A program made the translations under genes and the position numbers. From assembly GCF_003852425.1 (NCBI RefSeq), contig NZ_QAJN01000007.1, forward strand, positions 300,329 to 364,328: a stretch of 64,000 nucleotides of DNA, given 5' to 3'. This document shows positions 32,015 to 40,542 of this stretch, piece after piece. Positions within the stretch are counted from its first letter, which is position 1; each line of letters begins with the position of its first letter. Source of the DNA: Paucibacter sp. KBW04 (GTDB taxonomy: Bacteria; Pseudomonadota; Gammaproteobacteria; Burkholderiales; Burkholderiaceae_C). The notes below the pieces were generated by a model. It was not told the origin of the DNA, did no database searches, and worked only from the letters and a program-made list of their open reading frames with translations.

Positions 32015-32287
32015 ATGTCGGAAACACCCTTGAATTTCCCGCTCGGTCATTCTGGAGCGGCCCTCATCGTCCGCTCGGCTGCCGAACTTGGGACCATTGT
32101 GCGTGAGCAAAGGCGCGAGCTGAAGCTGCGCCAAATCGATCTGGCCGGCATTGGCAACACCGGCAATCGCCTAATCGTTGACATCGAAAAGGGCAAGCCC
32201 ACGGTGCAAATTCAAAAAGTGCTCGATGTGCTGGACTTGCTCGGACTGGAGCTGATCGTCAGACCGAAAACGCCGAGCTCGCTGTGA
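32015..32287 (+). CDS. hipB: HipB-like antitoxin, Xre-family helix-turn-helix
   Basis: 90-aa DNA-binding antitoxin. The HTH spans about residues 24-78 (LGTIVREQRRELKLRQIDLAGIGNTGNRLIVDIEKGKPT), with the usual ending LGLELIV. It should repress the operon and hold HipA inactive in a complex. The first ~20 residues (LNFPLGHSGAALIVRSAA) extend beyond the minimal HTH. Three operator-like repeats lie just upstream, and the stop codon overlaps the GTG of hipA by 3 bases, the usual coupled antitoxin-toxin order. Confidence 0.9.
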   Translation: MSETPLNFPLGHSGAALIVRSAAELGTIVREQRRELKLRQIDLAGIGNTGNRLIVDIEKGKPTVQIQKVLDVLDLLGLELIVRPKTPSSL

Positions 32288-33540
32288 ATCCAAGACCACG
32301 CGCACTGGATGTCTTTTACGGCACCGAGCTCATGGGGACGGTGCAAGACAGCTCACCCCTGGCATTTGAATACGCACCCACTTGGCTGGCACGTCAAGCC
32401 GCCTTCCCTCTGTCCGTGATTGCCTTGCAGGCGGGCAAGATTGACAGCCCGCATGTGCGGGCCTTTTTTGAGAACCTCTTGCCCGAGGGCGAACTGCGCG
32501 TCTACCTGTCGGAGCAGCGCAAGGCTTCCACGCTGTTCTCACTGCTGCTTGAGGTGGCGGGCGACACCGCCGGTGGCTTTGTCATGCTGCCCCATGGCCA
32601 GCGCCCCTCGCCCCCTGAGTACCAGACGACGAGTTGGGAAGCACTGGCCACCACGATCAAAAACAAAAGTGCCGGGGCCATTCAAATCCAAGGCGAGAAC
32701 ACGCGGATTTCCCTGGCCGGCGCACAGGACAAGGCCTCCATCGCCATCTTTGACGGCAAAACGCCGCTCTTGCCAAAGGGCTCGGCGCCCTCCACCCACA
32801 TCCTCAAGCCCGATATCCGGCGCTTGGCGAAAGTCAGAGAATCCGCCGCCAATGAAACCCTCATCATGCGCACGGCCGCCTTGTGCGGACTCAACACGGC
32901 CAAGGTCTTTTACGAACCCCTGACCAAAGCCTGCGTCGTCGAACGCTTTGACCGACAGACGCTGGCCGACGGCTCGCTGGGGCGCTTGATCCAGTACGAT
33001 TTTTGCCAGCTCGCGGGCCTAGGGTCTGAGCGAAAGTACGAGAAAGAGGGGGGCCCCGGCGCAGCGCAATGCGCGCAAATCATTCGCAAGTACAGCTCGT
33101 CCCCCGCCCTGGATCTGCAAGCCTTTGCGCAATGGATCTTCTTCAACCTTTTTGTCGGCAACAACGACAGCCACGCCAAAAACCTCTCCATCTATCAGCG
33201 GCCAGGACAAGGGGTACGACTCACGCCCTTCTACGACATGATGTGTACCCGCATCTACACCGGCTTATCGAGGGAATTTGCCTTCAGCATTGGCGGCGAG
33301 CTTGAGCCCGGAAAAATCGGCAAGGCTCAGCTGCAAGGCCTGGCAGCGCAAATCAGCATGCAGCCCAAGTATCTGCAATCGCTTGCCCTGGCCTTGGCGA
33401 ACAAACTGCCCGAGGCCATCGACCAAGCTGTGCAAGACCTCCAACCCATGCTCAGCCCTGGCGGCCAAACATTTACCAACAAACTCGCGCTGGACTTGAA
33501 GTCACAAACAAAAAAAGTGGCCCGGCGCCTCAGCGCATAG
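32284..33540 (+). CDS. hipA: HipA-like serine/threonine kinase toxin
   Basis: Type II toxin kinase, 418 aa, full length compared with E. coli HipA (440). The regulatory/P-loop segment RISLAGAQDK contains Ser143, equivalent to autophosphorylated Ser150. The catalytic loop VGNNDSHAKN supplies Asp295, and YDM (Asp318) is the metal-binding DFG equivalent. The N-terminal couple-HipA subdomain (LPEGELR) is present. E. coli HipA phosphorylates glutamyl-tRNA synthetase and causes growth arrest; the target here is not known. The start is the GTG at 32284, overlapping the hipB stop. All catalytic residues seem intact, so the module should be functional. Confidence 0.93.
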   Translation: MNPRPRALDVFYGTELMGTVQDSSPLAFEYAPTWLARQAAFPLSVIALQAGKIDSPHVRAFFENLLPEGELRVYLSEQRKASTLFSLLLEVAGDTAGGFVMLPHGQRPSPPEYQTTSWEALATTIKNKSAGAIQIQGENTRISLAGAQDKASIAIFDGKTPLLPKGSAPSTHILKPDIRRLAKVRESAANETLIMRTAALCGLNTAKVFYEPLTKACVVERFDRQTLADGSLGRLIQYDFCQLAGLGSERKYEKEGGPGAAQCAQIIRKYSSSPALDLQAFAQWIFFNLFVGNNDSHAKNLSIYQRPGQGVRLTPFYDMMCTRIYTGLSREFAFSIGGELEPGKIGKAQLQGLAAQISMQPKYLQSLALALANKLPEAIDQAVQDLQPMLSPGGQTFTNKLALDLKSQTKKVARRLSA

Positions 33541-36741: not shown

Positions 36742-37593
36742 TCAACCGGCGGGGTCCAGGCGCTTGGCCCGCGCCAGCCGCCAGGCCTCGTCGGGCAGGC
36801 CTGCGTAGACCTGTTCGGCGGTGGTGGCGGTCTCTTGCAATTGGGTGTCGATGGCGATGCGTTTGTCGAACACAAACAGCTCGCCGTCCCAGTCGGCGGC
36901 GGCGTCTTCACCACGGGCCTGCATGGCCTCGAAGTAGCTGACGATGCCGCCGTCCAGTTGGTAGACCTCCAGGCCTTGGTCTTGCATCCAGGCGCTGGTT
37001 TTTTCGCAGCGTATGCCGCCGGTGCAATACATGGCGACCTTTTTGCCTTGTGATTTCCACTCGTCCGCATGGGCCTCGACATAGGCCGGGAAATCGCGGA
37101 AATGCGCCACCTGCGGATCCACCGCGCCCTTGAAGCGGCCCAGGCGGAACTCGAAGCTATTGCGGTTGTCCAGCAGCACCACATCGGGCTGCTGAATCAG
37201 CTCGCGCCATTGCTCGGGCGGCACATGGGTATTGGCCTTGGCCGGGTCAGGCAGGCCGCTGACGCCGGGCACACCAAAGGCCACGATCTCGGGCTTGGTG
37301 TGCACCTTGATCAGGGTGAAAGGCCTGGTCGCGCAGGCACTGTGCTTGAACCACATGCCCTCAAACGCGCCGCCGAACACTTCATCGTGCTGCAGGGCTT
37401 GCTCGAAGTCAGCCAAGTCTTGAGGCAGGCCAGCTATTGCCGCGCTGATGCCCTCAGAAGCAACCAAGATATTGCCGCCCAAGCGAGTGCTGATCTCGCG
37501 CAGGCGCTGGGCAATGCGCTCGGGCTCGGCCAGGGCGACGAAGCGGTAGAAAGAGCTGTGAACGTGAGCTTCTGACATGGGGAACAAGATCAT
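36742..37593 (-). CDS. trhO: tRNA uridine(34) hydroxylase TrhO (rhodanese-like)
   Basis: 283 aa from the ATG at 37593, which overlaps the TGA of the upstream desulfurase-fusion gene by one base; an ATG at 37578 is the alternative. TrhO-family proteins hydroxylate U34 in a set of tRNAs with O2. The N-terminal acylphosphatase-like domain (FYRFVALAEPERIAQRL) and a rhodanese domain are visible. The rhodanese active-site loop is YCTGGIRCEK with its catalytic Cys, and DNRNSFEFRLGRFKGA is the family signature. Coupling to a cysteine desulfurase carrying its own rhodanese suggests a shared sulfur or tRNA-modification context. Confidence 0.92.
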   Translation of the reverse strand: MILFPMSEAHVHSSFYRFVALAEPERIAQRLREISTRLGGNILVASEGISAAIAGLPQDLADFEQALQHDEVFGGAFEGMWFKHSACATRPFTLIKVHTKPEIVAFGVPGVSGLPDPAKANTHVPPEQWRELIQQPDVVLLDNRNSFEFRLGRFKGAVDPQVAHFRDFPAYVEAHADEWKSQGKKVAMYCTGGIRCEKTSAWMQDQGLEVYQLDGGIVSYFEAMQARGEDAAADWDGELFVFDKRIAIDTQLQETATTAEQVYAGLPDEAWRLARAKRLDPAG

Positions 37594-39632
37594 CAAACCA
37601 TCAGGGCAGGGTCTTCGGTGGCAAAAGCCGGCAGCAAGGCCAGGCCCCCGTTAAGCGACCAGGCCTGGCTATGGCCCAAGCTGGCCAGGGCCGCGGCCGC
37701 TTGGCGGCTGCGATTGCCGCTGCGGCAGAAAAACAGCAGGGGCTGCTCGGGCTGGGTCAACCAAGCCGGCAAGGCATTCAGCAGACGCGACAGCGGCACC
37801 GCCTGCAAGGTGGCGCCCCACAGCGGCGGCGTGTGGCTGAGGAACTGCTCGTAGGGCTCGCGCACATCGATCACCAAGGCCTCGGGATGCGCTTGCACAA
37901 AGGCTTGCAGCTGGGCGCCGGGCAGCAGCCGCTCGCTGAGCGGCTTGGGCGCTAATGCTTGATTCAAACGGCGCACAAACTGCGCGCCTGCATCCAGGGC
38001 CGGGGCGCACAAGCAGGCCAGCTCGGCGCATTCGGCACCCGGCTCGCCAAACAGCAGCAGGTCGCGGCCCGCTTCGCTCAAGACCAAGCCTTGTTGGCGG
38101 CCGCCTTGCAGGGGCAGGCGCCGCAGGCACTTGGCGCCCAGCTGCAGCTCGCTCATCTGCACGGGCCAGCCCAGGGCGTCGATCTCGGTCTGCGGGAACA
38201 AGGCCTCGCCCAGCTCCTCGGCCAGTGCCTGGCGTGCCTCGGCATGCAGGCCCGAGCCCTGGGTGCTGAGCACGGCGAGGAGCGGGTAGGCCTGGCATTG
38301 CAGGGTTTGGATCAGCCGTGGCAATTGCTCGGGCAAGGGGTCGATCAACACGCAGCGCTGGGAGGCCGCATCGGCCAGCAGATAGCAGCAAGCGCCATCC
38401 AGAGCGAAGCGGGTGATGCCCTCGCCCAGCGTGGGTTGGTTGTCCTGCGGGCTCAAACAATTCTGGCGCAGAGACTCGCCGCAGGCGCGGATGCGGGCGC
38501 AGGCCTCTTTGATAAAGGCCTCGTCCACGGCCGGGCCGATGGAGAGCCGCACCGCGCCGGCCGCCTGCCAGTCCGGCAAGCCCATGGCTTGCAAGACAAA
38601 GCTGGGCTGAGCCTTGGCGGCGCTGCAGGCCGAGCCACCGCTGATGCGCAGCTCGGCCGCGTCGAACAAGTCTTGCAGCAGGCGCGAGCTCAGGCCAGGC
38701 ACGGCGAAGTTGAGCGTGGTGGGAAGGGTCTGGTCCAGCGGCGCGTTGTAGACCAGGCCAGGGAAGGCCTCTTCCAGCGCCTCGGCCAGGCGGGCGCGGA
38801 AGGCATGCAGGGTGGCATGATCACGAAAGCTAACGCCGTCTTCCAGCGCTGCCAGCACCGCACCCAGGGCGGCGATACCGGACATATTCTCGGTGCCCGA
38901 ACGGCGGCTGCCCTCTTGCCCGCCACCGGCCATCAGCGGCGTGAAGGGCGCGCCCTCACGCACATACAGCAGACCGATTCCCTTGGGCGCGTAAAGCTTG
39001 TGGCCGGAGAAGGGCGCGTAATCGATGCGGGTCTGGGCCAGCTGCAGAGGGATCTTGCCCAGGGCCTGCACGCCGTCCACCATCCAGAAGGCGCGACTGC
39101 CGCTGCGCTGCAAAGTCGCCTCAATGCCGGCCAGATCGCTGATCACGCCCGTCTCGTTATTGGCGGCCATGGTGCAGACCAGGCCGGCGCGCGGCGCCTC
39201 GCGCAGCAAAAAGTCCAGATCGTGATGACCCTCGCGGTCCACAGGGATGGCGGCGATTTGCAGATTCAGGCCGAGGATTTGGTTCCAGTGCTTGAGCGCC
39301 TCGGGCACGGCCTTGTGTTCGGTGGCGCCGTAGAGCAGCAGCTCGGCCGTGTTGTCACCCGCTTGCCGACGCGCCAACAAGGCGTGCAGGGCCGAGAGCA
39401 CGGCGGTCTGAATGCCTTCGGTGGCGCCGCTGACGAAGAGCAGCTGGCCGCCGCCGGTGTGCAGCAGCGCTCTAGCGCGCTCGCGGGCGGCATCCATCAG
39501 GGCGCGGGCCTTCAGGCCGGTGCTGTGCACGCTGCTGGGGTTGCCAAAGTCGTCCGCCATGGCTTGCAAAGCGGCTTGAGCGGCTTGCGCCAGCACCGGG
39601 GTGGTGGCATTGGCATCGAGATAAATTTCCAT
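37593..39632 (-). CDS. Cysteine desulfurase - degenerate MBL/ETHE1-like - rhodanese fusion
   Basis: Three-domain protein, 679 aa from the ATG at 39632 (MEIYLDANATTP), where NifS-type proteins begin. Residues 1-385 are a PLP-dependent cysteine desulfurase: the PLP Lys212 is in FSGHKLYAPKG and the sulfur-carrying Cys336 in GGSACSAAK. Residues ~405-560 resemble persulfide dioxygenases of the metallo-beta-lactamase fold (CYLLADAASQRCVLIDP), but the metal motif is replaced by STQGSGLHAEA, so it should not bind iron. Residues ~575-679 are a rhodanese with active-site Cys636 (FFCRSGNRS). The layout implies that persulfide made on Cys336 passes to Cys636, with the middle domain as scaffold. It is coupled to trhO. 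Confidence 0.88.
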   Translation of the reverse strand: MEIYLDANATTPVLAQAAQAALQAMADDFGNPSSVHSTGLKARALMDAARERARALLHTGGGQLLFVSGATEGIQTAVLSALHALLARRQAGDNTAELLLYGATEHKAVPEALKHWNQILGLNLQIAAIPVDREGHHDLDFLLREAPRAGLVCTMAANNETGVISDLAGIEATLQRSGSRAFWMVDGVQALGKIPLQLAQTRIDYAPFSGHKLYAPKGIGLLYVREGAPFTPLMAGGGQEGSRRSGTENMSGIAALGAVLAALEDGVSFRDHATLHAFRARLAEALEEAFPGLVYNAPLDQTLPTTLNFAVPGLSSRLLQDLFDAAELRISGGSACSAAKAQPSFVLQAMGLPDWQAAGAVRLSIGPAVDEAFIKEACARIRACGESLRQNCLSPQDNQPTLGEGITRFALDGACCYLLADAASQRCVLIDPLPEQLPRLIQTLQCQAYPLLAVLSTQGSGLHAEARQALAEELGEALFPQTEIDALGWPVQMSELQLGAKCLRRLPLQGGRQQGLVLSEAGRDLLLFGEPGAECAELACLCAPALDAGAQFVRRLNQALAPKPLSERLLPGAQLQAFVQAHPEALVIDVREPYEQFLSHTPPLWGATLQAVPLSRLLNALPAWLTQPEQPLLFFCRSGNRSRQAAAALASLGHSQAWSLNGGLALLPAFATEDPALMV

Positions 39633-39945
39633 GGGGGAGCGGGTCGCAGCGAGCAATGCAGACTGAATGAAGAACAAGAGGCGCAATCCTACTCTGCCGG
39701 GCCTTGGGCCTATACTTTCCGCCCGGGTCGGCAGAACACCCAGGCCTTGCCGTGCGGCAGGAGTCATTGATCACTTCCTTCCGCAAGCTAAACCTGCCAG
39801 GCGAAACGTCTTTTGATTGATTCATTCAGCTTGAGCTCACCCAAACTTTTGTGTGCGCCCGGCTGGAAGTCGGCAAGCACCAGCACCGTCTGCGTCTGAC
39901 GTAGACGGCGGGTTAAAGCAGCACACGATTTGTGGAGAACTCGCC

Positions 39946-40542
39946 ATGCCTCGTGAATTGATCGCCCTGCACGCTCAGGACCTTTCTGCCTTCACCAAAG
40001 CCCTTCGCCAGGAGCTGAGCCAGCATCTGAGCGCCAGCCCAAGCCCCGAAGCCCCCAGCCACCTGAGCTTGATGAATATGCTGGCTCGCGCGGCCGGGCA
40101 TCGCAATCTTCAGGCACTGAGAGCGCTCAAGGCCGACGCGCCGGCAAAGCCGAGCAAGCTGACCCCCGTCCATGCCGCCCCAGCACGTGGCCCGCGCCAC
40201 CCCGACTTGAGCGAAGCCGCCGACCGCGCCCTGCGCCAGTTCGACGCCCAGGGCCGCTTGGCGCGCTGGCCCTCCAAGCGCCAGGTGCAGCGCCATGTCT
40301 TGTGGGGCTTGTGGCTGCACTTTGACAGCCGCCGCATCTACACCGAGCCCGAGGTCAACGAGGTGATCAACAAGCAGCATTGCTTTGGCGACCACTGCAC
40401 CCTGCGCCGCGAGCTGGTGGAGATGCGTTTGCTGGAACGCTGGGACGGCGGCCGCCAATACCGCAAGCTGGCGGCGAGGCCTGATGAGGAGCTGCTGCCC
40501 CTGCTGCGCGAGCTGCGCCAGCGGGCCACACCGAACGAGTAA
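39946..40542 (+). CDS. DUF2087-domain protein
   Basis: 198 aa from the ATG at 39946, preceded by GGAG. The C-terminal half (WPSKRQVQRHVLWGLWLHFDSRRIYTEPEVNEVINKQ, then HCTLRRELVEMRLLERWDGGRQYRKL) is the DUF2087 domain, a winged-helix-like module often found in putative transcription factors. The N-terminal ~90 residues are helical. It may bind nucleic acid. It is transcribed alone, divergent from the desulfurase fusion, with ~310 bp between the two starts that hold promoters but no other gene. Confidence 0.85.
   Translation: MPRELIALHAQDLSAFTKALRQELSQHLSASPSPEAPSHLSLMNMLARAAGHRNLQALRALKADAPAKPSKLTPVHAAPARGPRHPDLSEAADRALRQFDAQGRLARWPSKRQVQRHVLWGLWLHFDSRRIYTEPEVNEVINKQHCFGDHCTLRRELVEMRLLERWDGGRQYRKLAARPDEELLPLLRELRQRATPNE

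Follow-up and report, generated by a model that had tools for sequence, protein, structure and literature searches.

The fusion gene and its domains

The window analyzed here is a stretch of 64,000 nucleotides from Paucibacter sp. KBW04 (contig NZ_QAJN01000007.1, positions 300,329 to 364,328). Its reverse strand encodes a 679-amino-acid protein in which a cysteine desulfurase (CD), a degenerate middle region, and a rhodanese (Rhd) are joined on one chain (Table 1). A preliminary description, made from the DNA letters alone, had reported this fusion, and the Pfam domains bear it out. Aminotran_5 matches residues 3-372 (5e-53), and Rhodanese matches residues 583-664 (2.1e-7; 31.8 bits against a cut-off of 22.2). 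No significant Pfam match is found between them. The desulfurase residues Lys212 and Cys336 and the rhodanese Cys636, named in the same description, are each kept in 81 of the 81 fusions compared below.

The N-terminal part has the characteristics of a type I desulfurase, namely the aminotransferase class V fold, the lysine for pyridoxal phosphate (PLP), and a catalytic cysteine loop. Cys336 sits in a GGSACS loop of the SGSACS type. The top NCBIfam match is NifS, with 265 bits against a cut-off of 531, and the scores for DndA and IscS are also under their cut-offs. The active-site loop of the rhodanese starts at the cysteine (CRSGNRS). With a desulfurase, a rhodanese, and both catalytic cysteines on one chain, the protein has the make-up of a CD-Rhd fusion. 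The mechanical open reading frame extends upstream to an ATG at 39767, and homologues match from MEIYLD. A second, IscS-like desulfurase in the same genome is 33% identical to the fusion over residues 3-389.

Table 1. Positions of the fusion gene, its parts, and nearby genes in the window (PDO, persulfide dioxygenase; MBL, metallo-beta-lactamase)
Feature	Position	Strand	Remark
Whole fusion gene	37593..39632	-	679 aa; CD + degenerate PDO + Rhd
Type I (IscS/NifS-like) cysteine desulfurase, residues 1-388	38469..39632	-	Pfam Aminotran_5 5e-53
Lys212 codon	38997-38999	-	Within desulfurase
Cys336 codon	38625-38627	-	Within desulfurase
Degenerate MBL/PDO domain, first half, residues 400-472	38217..38435	-	Conserved Cys415, Cys446
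Cys415 codon	38388-38390	-	MBL half, conserved among fusions
Cys427 codon	38352-38354	-	MBL half, conserved among fusions
Cys446 codon	38295-38297	-	MBL half, conserved among fusions
Former metal motif STQGSGLHAEA, residues 456-466	38235-38267	-	Alignment with THSHGDHA of intact relatives
Degenerate MBL/PDO domain, second half, residues 473-566	37935..38216	-	PGHT and GD ligand motifs lost
Rhodanese, residues 572-668	37629..37919	-	CRSGNRS loop; Pfam Rhodanese 2.1e-7
Cys636 codon	37725-37727	-	Within rhodanese
trhO, tRNA uridine(34) hydroxylase	36742..37596	-	NCBIfam NF001133 230 bits, cut-off 170; overlaps fusion stop codon
DUF2087 protein	39853-40542	+	Adjoins fusion; relatives in 9/80 loci
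HipA-type kinase gene	32284-33540	+	HipA_C 1.2e-47, Couple_hipA 2.6e-13

Ancestry and repeated decay of the middle domain

Relatives were collected by scanning genome contigs with patterns from the window protein. The best 80 of 99 loci were used, which together with the window gives 81 rows. Since the scan patterns came from the window protein, this set is biased to window-like sequences. The relatives belong to Roseateles, Paucibacter, Pelomonas, Variovorax, Comamonas, Inhella, Massilia, Alishewanella, Rheinheimera, and other genera. The lengths of the fusions cluster mainly at about 750, 680, and 510 amino acids, and the middle region accounts for the difference; the window protein has about 65-80 fewer residues there than intact relatives do. 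Long fusions carry, in order, THSHGDHA, PGHT, VGDT, GRSDF or GRTDF, and PGHDY. Short forms have no middle domain. In the window form, the remaining motifs are gone and STQGSGLHAEA stands at the first. The replacement of THxHxDH by this segment, as first described, is real, and the segment aligns with THSHGDHA of the relatives.

Scored by ligand columns, the middle domain is intact in 42 rows, triad-only in 8, degenerate in 22 (the window included), and absent in 9. Retention of HxHxDH in related fusions, an early suggestion for a check, is therefore found in the 42 of 81 rows with an intact PDO motif. The reading frame is open over the full length in all 22 degenerate rows. The three iron-ligand columns read Q, G, and a gap in the window, and both the window protein and L007 (L numbers denote loci) have none of the three ligands. 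In the triad-only rows, which come from Alishewanella and Rheinheimera, HxHxDH is altered in its last residues and all three iron ligands are kept. Because of the retained ligands, these fusions may still be active. The triad-only rows (L064, L066, L069, L070, L073, L076, L077, and L082) have a GntR/FadR-type gene upstream. Among the cysteines of the first half, Cys427 is kept in 20 of 22 degenerate versus 19 of 42 intact rows.

The descent of the middle domain can be followed through an intact relative, L025. Its middle domain matches the PDB chains 4ysb (2.7e-25), 9rhq (2.4e-19), 2gcu (1.4e-18), human ETHE1 4chl (1.1e-16), and BpPRF (6e-16). When L025 is aligned with PDO structures, the three iron-ligand positions, namely the first His, the PGHT His, and the GD Asp, coincide. 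The metal site of PaPDO is formed by His71, His146, and Asp163, a 2-His-1-Asp arrangement, according to the consulted part of PMC12856154. No PDB chain was matched by the window middle region alone up to E 10, so the MBL link of this region runs through its relatives. A profile of 15 middle domains, all of them degenerate, was matched against one built from 21 separate PDO-rhodanese proteins whose frames were set by tblastn. The match has a probability of 94% (E 1e-7) and a score of 56.4, and it spans 89 columns in the first half of the domain; the maximum score in 100 column-shuffled profiles is 20.2. THxHADH and PGHT are present in 21 of the 21 PDO-rhodanese proteins; 19 match all five patterns, and the other two miss one each. 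These comparisons support the view, already put forward in the preliminary description, that the middle region is a former ETHE1-type PDO of MBL descent, now devoid of the 2-His-1-Asp iron triad.

The structure prediction suggested at that stage gives a confident AlphaFold2 model of the window protein (mean pLDDT 86.6), in which residues 401-530 have block means of 89-96 and residues 531-540 one of 83. However, this model is not independent proof of the fold, because its input alignment contained intact relatives. In the L025 model (mean pLDDT 84.2), strands and helices follow the same order as in the window model, both in the first half of the middle domain and in the strands beyond it. Helix 548-561, strand 567-570, and the helices between 582 and 612 of L025 are missing from the window model. 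Foldseek searches of PDB and BFVD place desulfurases (best IscS/NifS) and other PLP enzymes on top and are no test of the middle domain.

Decay of the middle domain has arisen several times. On a tree built from the desulfurase domain alone, the 81 fusions all group together, on long branches, apart from 7 other desulfurases. The degenerate state requires 5 changes on the 81-fusion tree, and the absent state requires 6. A combined tree of 113 fusions was also built; it excludes L083, whose match is divided between two frames, L009 and L015, which come from short contigs in genome bins, and a further 27 rows that are repeats. This tree requires 7 and 9 changes, of which well-supported branches force 4 and 5. 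The clade of the window on this tree consists of 13 degenerate and 2 domain-less rows. The degenerate forms probably descend from active ones, because the motif positions still present in them match those of PDOs. A tree of the rhodanese domain, built to see if CD-Rhd forms derive from triple fusions, has low resolution (101 columns, with 13 of 55 inner branches starred) and puts the separate PDO-rhodaneses in two distant places; nothing is drawn from it.

Selection on the domains and presence of a separate PDO-rhodanese

The ratio of nonsynonymous to synonymous rates (dN/dS) was obtained for 8 disjoint close pairs of degenerate forms and 10 disjoint close pairs of intact forms. In the degenerate pairs, it is 0.104 for the desulfurase, 0.138 (95% interval 0.100-0.194) for the first half of the middle domain, 0.386 (0.326-0.453) for the second half, and 0.096 for the rhodanese. 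Both halves are well below 1. The corresponding values in the intact pairs are 0.106, 0.122, 0.202, and 0.208. When pairs are pooled, and thus not independent of one another, the values are 0.184, 0.315, 0.548, and 0.199 for all 105 window-clade pairs and 0.196, 0.238, 0.340, and 0.339 for 351 intact pairs. The degenerate first half is under purifying selection, about as strong as in intact forms among close pairs and somewhat weaker across the whole window clade. The second half is relaxed, yet not free of constraint. The proposal that the former dioxygenase is kept as a scaffold thus holds in part: selection on the first half favors it, and the relaxed second half and the lineages without the domain do not. 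The rhodanese appears to be held more firmly after loss of the oxygenase, a tentative conclusion because different clades are compared.

It is very unlikely that the middle region is a mere linker without selection. The relaxation of the second half, the pooled window-clade value of 0.548, and the several lineages without the domain would fit a linker. However, the close-pair ratios of both halves are well below 1, the fold is confidently predicted, Asp431 and Leu455 are invariant in 72 of the 72 rows with a middle domain, and Ala453 is kept in 71 of them.

The same selection on the first half would also suit a sensor or regulator, for example one that binds thiols or persulfides at Cys415 or Cys446, instead of a structural remnant. 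Each of these cysteines is kept in 20 of 22 degenerate rows, and the tighter constraint on the rhodanese in degenerate than in intact pairs (0.096 versus 0.208; pooled 0.199 versus 0.339) may mean a changed function. We nevertheless regard a sensor as unlikely. The two cysteines are not new, because intact relatives already have them: Cys415 is present in 49 of 50 intact or triad-only rows (there is no Cys in the aligned PDO-rhodanese L117), and Cys446 is present in 38 of 42 intact rows and in none of the 8 triad-only ones. Moreover, 9 of 81 rows lack the domain (two of them inside the window clade), and its second half is relaxed.

The genome of the window encodes a separate PDO-rhodanese with intact motifs (THVHADH, GHT, GD, GRTDF), which adjoins a DUF6691/Sulf_transp (sulfur-transport-like) gene. 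Such an enzyme was sought in 50 and 28 genomes behind the loci, counting matches at E <1e-50; L035 shares its genome with L019, and L059 with L026. Of the degenerate rows, 18 of 22 have it, as do 6 of the 9 rows that lack the middle domain; it occurs in 2 of the 42 intact rows and in none of the 8 triad-only ones. Taken together, 24 of 31 decayed or domain-less rows have it versus 2 of 50 others. The Fisher p of 3e-12 for this contrast ignores kinship and is not used. L019 and L035, both from Roseateles toxinivorans DSM 16998, represent a degenerate and an intact fusion copy in one genome that also holds a separate PDO-rhodanese, a ready paralogue comparison.

A second set was taken from 399 genomes sampled evenly across the family. 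Fusions matched at E 1e-110 or better occur in 61 of these genomes, with 62 genes in all, and here "intact" means that THxHxDH is present, nothing more. The separate PDO-rhodanese accompanies 5 of the 26 genes with an intact domain, 11 of the 12 with a degenerate one, and 20 of the 24 with none; decayed and domain-less genes together thus reach 31 of 36. The two sets are not independent, because they have 27 of these 62 genes in common. A match to the rhodanese Cys-loop pattern is found in 60 of the 62 genes, the other two being L160 and L187. A Pagel-type likelihood test on the 113-row tree prefers dependence between decay and the separate enzyme (likelihood ratio 22.5, p 1.6e-4). The p value is 7e-8 when loss is irreversible, 0.026 (reversible) or 3e-5 (irreversible) when domain-less rows are omitted, 7e-4 when the Alishewanella group is omitted, and 6e-4 for the 399-genome set alone.

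Gene neighborhood and probable function of the fusion

The annotated neighbors of the fusion, at about 32.3-42.3 kb of the window, are HipA, LysR, ADH, ABM, cytochrome b561, trhO, DUF2087, psd, and glyoxalase genes. The DUF2087 and psd genes lie upstream of the fusion, and trhO lies downstream. The overlap with trhO noted in the preliminary description is present: the stop codon of the fusion and an ATG of trhO share TGATG, and further in-frame starts are close by. Among intact loci with enough upstream flank, 28 of 41 have a divergent Lrp/AsnC-type regulator (family by Pfam) upstream. The same holds for 6 of the 9 loci that lack the middle domain, for 2 of the 19 degenerate ones, and for none of the 8 triad-only ones. 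No such regulator was found in the window-clade loci with flank. Its nearest relative in the genome of the window is 68% identical and lies on another contig.

The overlap had led to the idea that the fusion, together with TrhO, relays sulfur to tRNA, and trhO is indeed downstream in 17 of 80 loci. To this idea we now give hardly any credence. The trhO neighborhood is that of the window clade (16 loci) plus L046. It does not track the state of the middle domain (14 degenerate, 2 absent, 1 intact). The 28 intact loci with the regulator have no trhO downstream, and the genome of the window has TusA and the second IscS-like desulfurase. TrhO is a tRNA hydroxylase and is not known to require sulfur. 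A role in DNA phosphorothioation was also considered, as the DndA/SspA profiles score 284-287 bits on the fusion. It was set aside because no dnd/ssp partner genes are among the annotated neighbors, the part of the genome in which they were looked for.

The window protein is likely a CD-Rhd enzyme for persulfide transfer that arose from a CD-PDO-Rhd triple fusion, with the oxygenase step presumably now residing in a separate enzyme. The desulfurase would form a persulfide on Cys336 from L-cysteine. Cys636 of the rhodanese would take over this persulfide and pass it on to small thiols or other acceptors. In intact relatives, glutathione persulfide would be oxidized to sulfite on the same chain, giving an overall conversion of cysteine to sulfite. 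In the window protein, the dioxygenase no longer has its C-terminal part or any of the three iron ligands, and the separate PDO-rhodanese of the same genome, judging from its motifs, presumably carries out this step. Selection retains the first half of the former domain, most likely because it serves folding, spacing, or dimer contacts.

The relay from Cys336 through Cys636 to a thiol would be the simplest reading of the window protein, and it has a counterpart in a relative. Both a desulfurase and a thiosulfate sulfurtransferase activity have been measured for the CD-Rhd fusion WP_056898193.1 of Pseudorhodoferax strain Leaf274 (Selles et al. 2022; PMC8931425, consulted in part). The C466S rhodanese variant of this protein has about ten-fold less desulfurase activity with glutathione and beta-mercaptoethanol, which is evidence of a Cys-to-Cys relay (PMC8931425). 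The internal persulfide relay of the preliminary description would therefore apply to the window protein by analogy. Like the window fusion, the Pseudorhodoferax protein has the desulfurase followed by the rhodanese on one chain, and Pseudorhodoferax relatives from other strains than Leaf274 (L068 and L072) fall inside the fusion tree. However, it has no middle domain, whereas the window protein keeps about 170 residues of the former dioxygenase. The words "lactamase" and "dioxygenase" occur nowhere in the main text of PMC8931425.

With the IscS, NifS, DndA, and SspA type I desulfurases, the window fusion shares the fold, the PLP lysine, and the catalytic cysteine loop, but it forms its own tree group, stays below the NCBIfam cut-offs noted above, and has two extra domains fused. 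BpPRF, whose dioxygenase site is reportedly functional, has the MBL-then-rhodanese order of the C-terminal part of the triple fusions but no desulfurase, and a separate enzyme of this type is encoded in the genome of the window. We take PDB entries 5ve3-5ve5 to be BpPRF from their molecule names and a reference in the consulted part of PMC9774590. With ETHE1 and the PDOs (4chl, 2gcu, 4ysb), the middle domain shares descent and ancestral motif positions, but in the window protein it has 0 of 3 iron ligands and no C-terminal part. The window protein is thus a variant of known CD-Rhd fusions, and no paper on the triple fusion or its repeated decay was found in searches of open-licence PMC papers.

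Several points weigh against a decayed triple fusion with a relay. The association between decay and the separate enzyme is strong by count and supported by the models, but the strictest test does not show it: independent pairs on well-supported branches number 4, of which a mean of 2.7 agree and 0 oppose (p 0.25). Single pairings on the first set included one opposing pair, and every likelihood test rests on single quick trees. Seven of the 31 decayed or domain-less rows have no detected PDO-rhodanese (L009, L024, L058, L060, L061, L063, and L074), and 2 of the 50 other rows have one (L035 and L051). The exceptions among the 399 genomes are 5 of 36 decayed or domain-less genes without and 5 of 26 intact genes with the separate enzyme. 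Several basal lineages have no middle domain, and a CD-Rhd ancestor with a single gain of the dioxygenase, followed by losses, may fit the root as well as losses only. The pooled first-half dN/dS of the window clade (0.315) exceeds both the intact value (0.238) and that of the clade's own desulfurase (0.184). Finally, the relay is argued from the data of a relative.

A broader scenario can be proposed more tentatively. The triple fusion may be a single chain that, with glutathione and oxygen, turns L-cysteine into alanine and sulfite, and its gene often has an Lrp/AsnC-type regulator next to it. Where a separate PDO-rhodanese is present in the genome, the fused oxygenase may be inactivated or deleted, and the output would switch from sulfite to persulfide. 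The window protein would then be a mid-stage in which one half of the dead domain has been retained as a structural element.

One CD-Rhd fusion has already been used in a cysteine biosensor, according to the consulted part of PMC12319549. If a CD-Rhd enzyme derived from a triple fusion is the right reading, the known CD-Rhd fusions are extended by a domain that would set their chemical output, and the intact forms would be one-chain cysteine-to-sulfite enzymes that are open to direct assay. The family would then amount to a natural experiment, with one catalytic step of a multi-domain enzyme repeatedly switched off and the other two still under strict selection. Its graded series of active, dead, and absent domains would allow us to ask what a dead enzyme domain still does.

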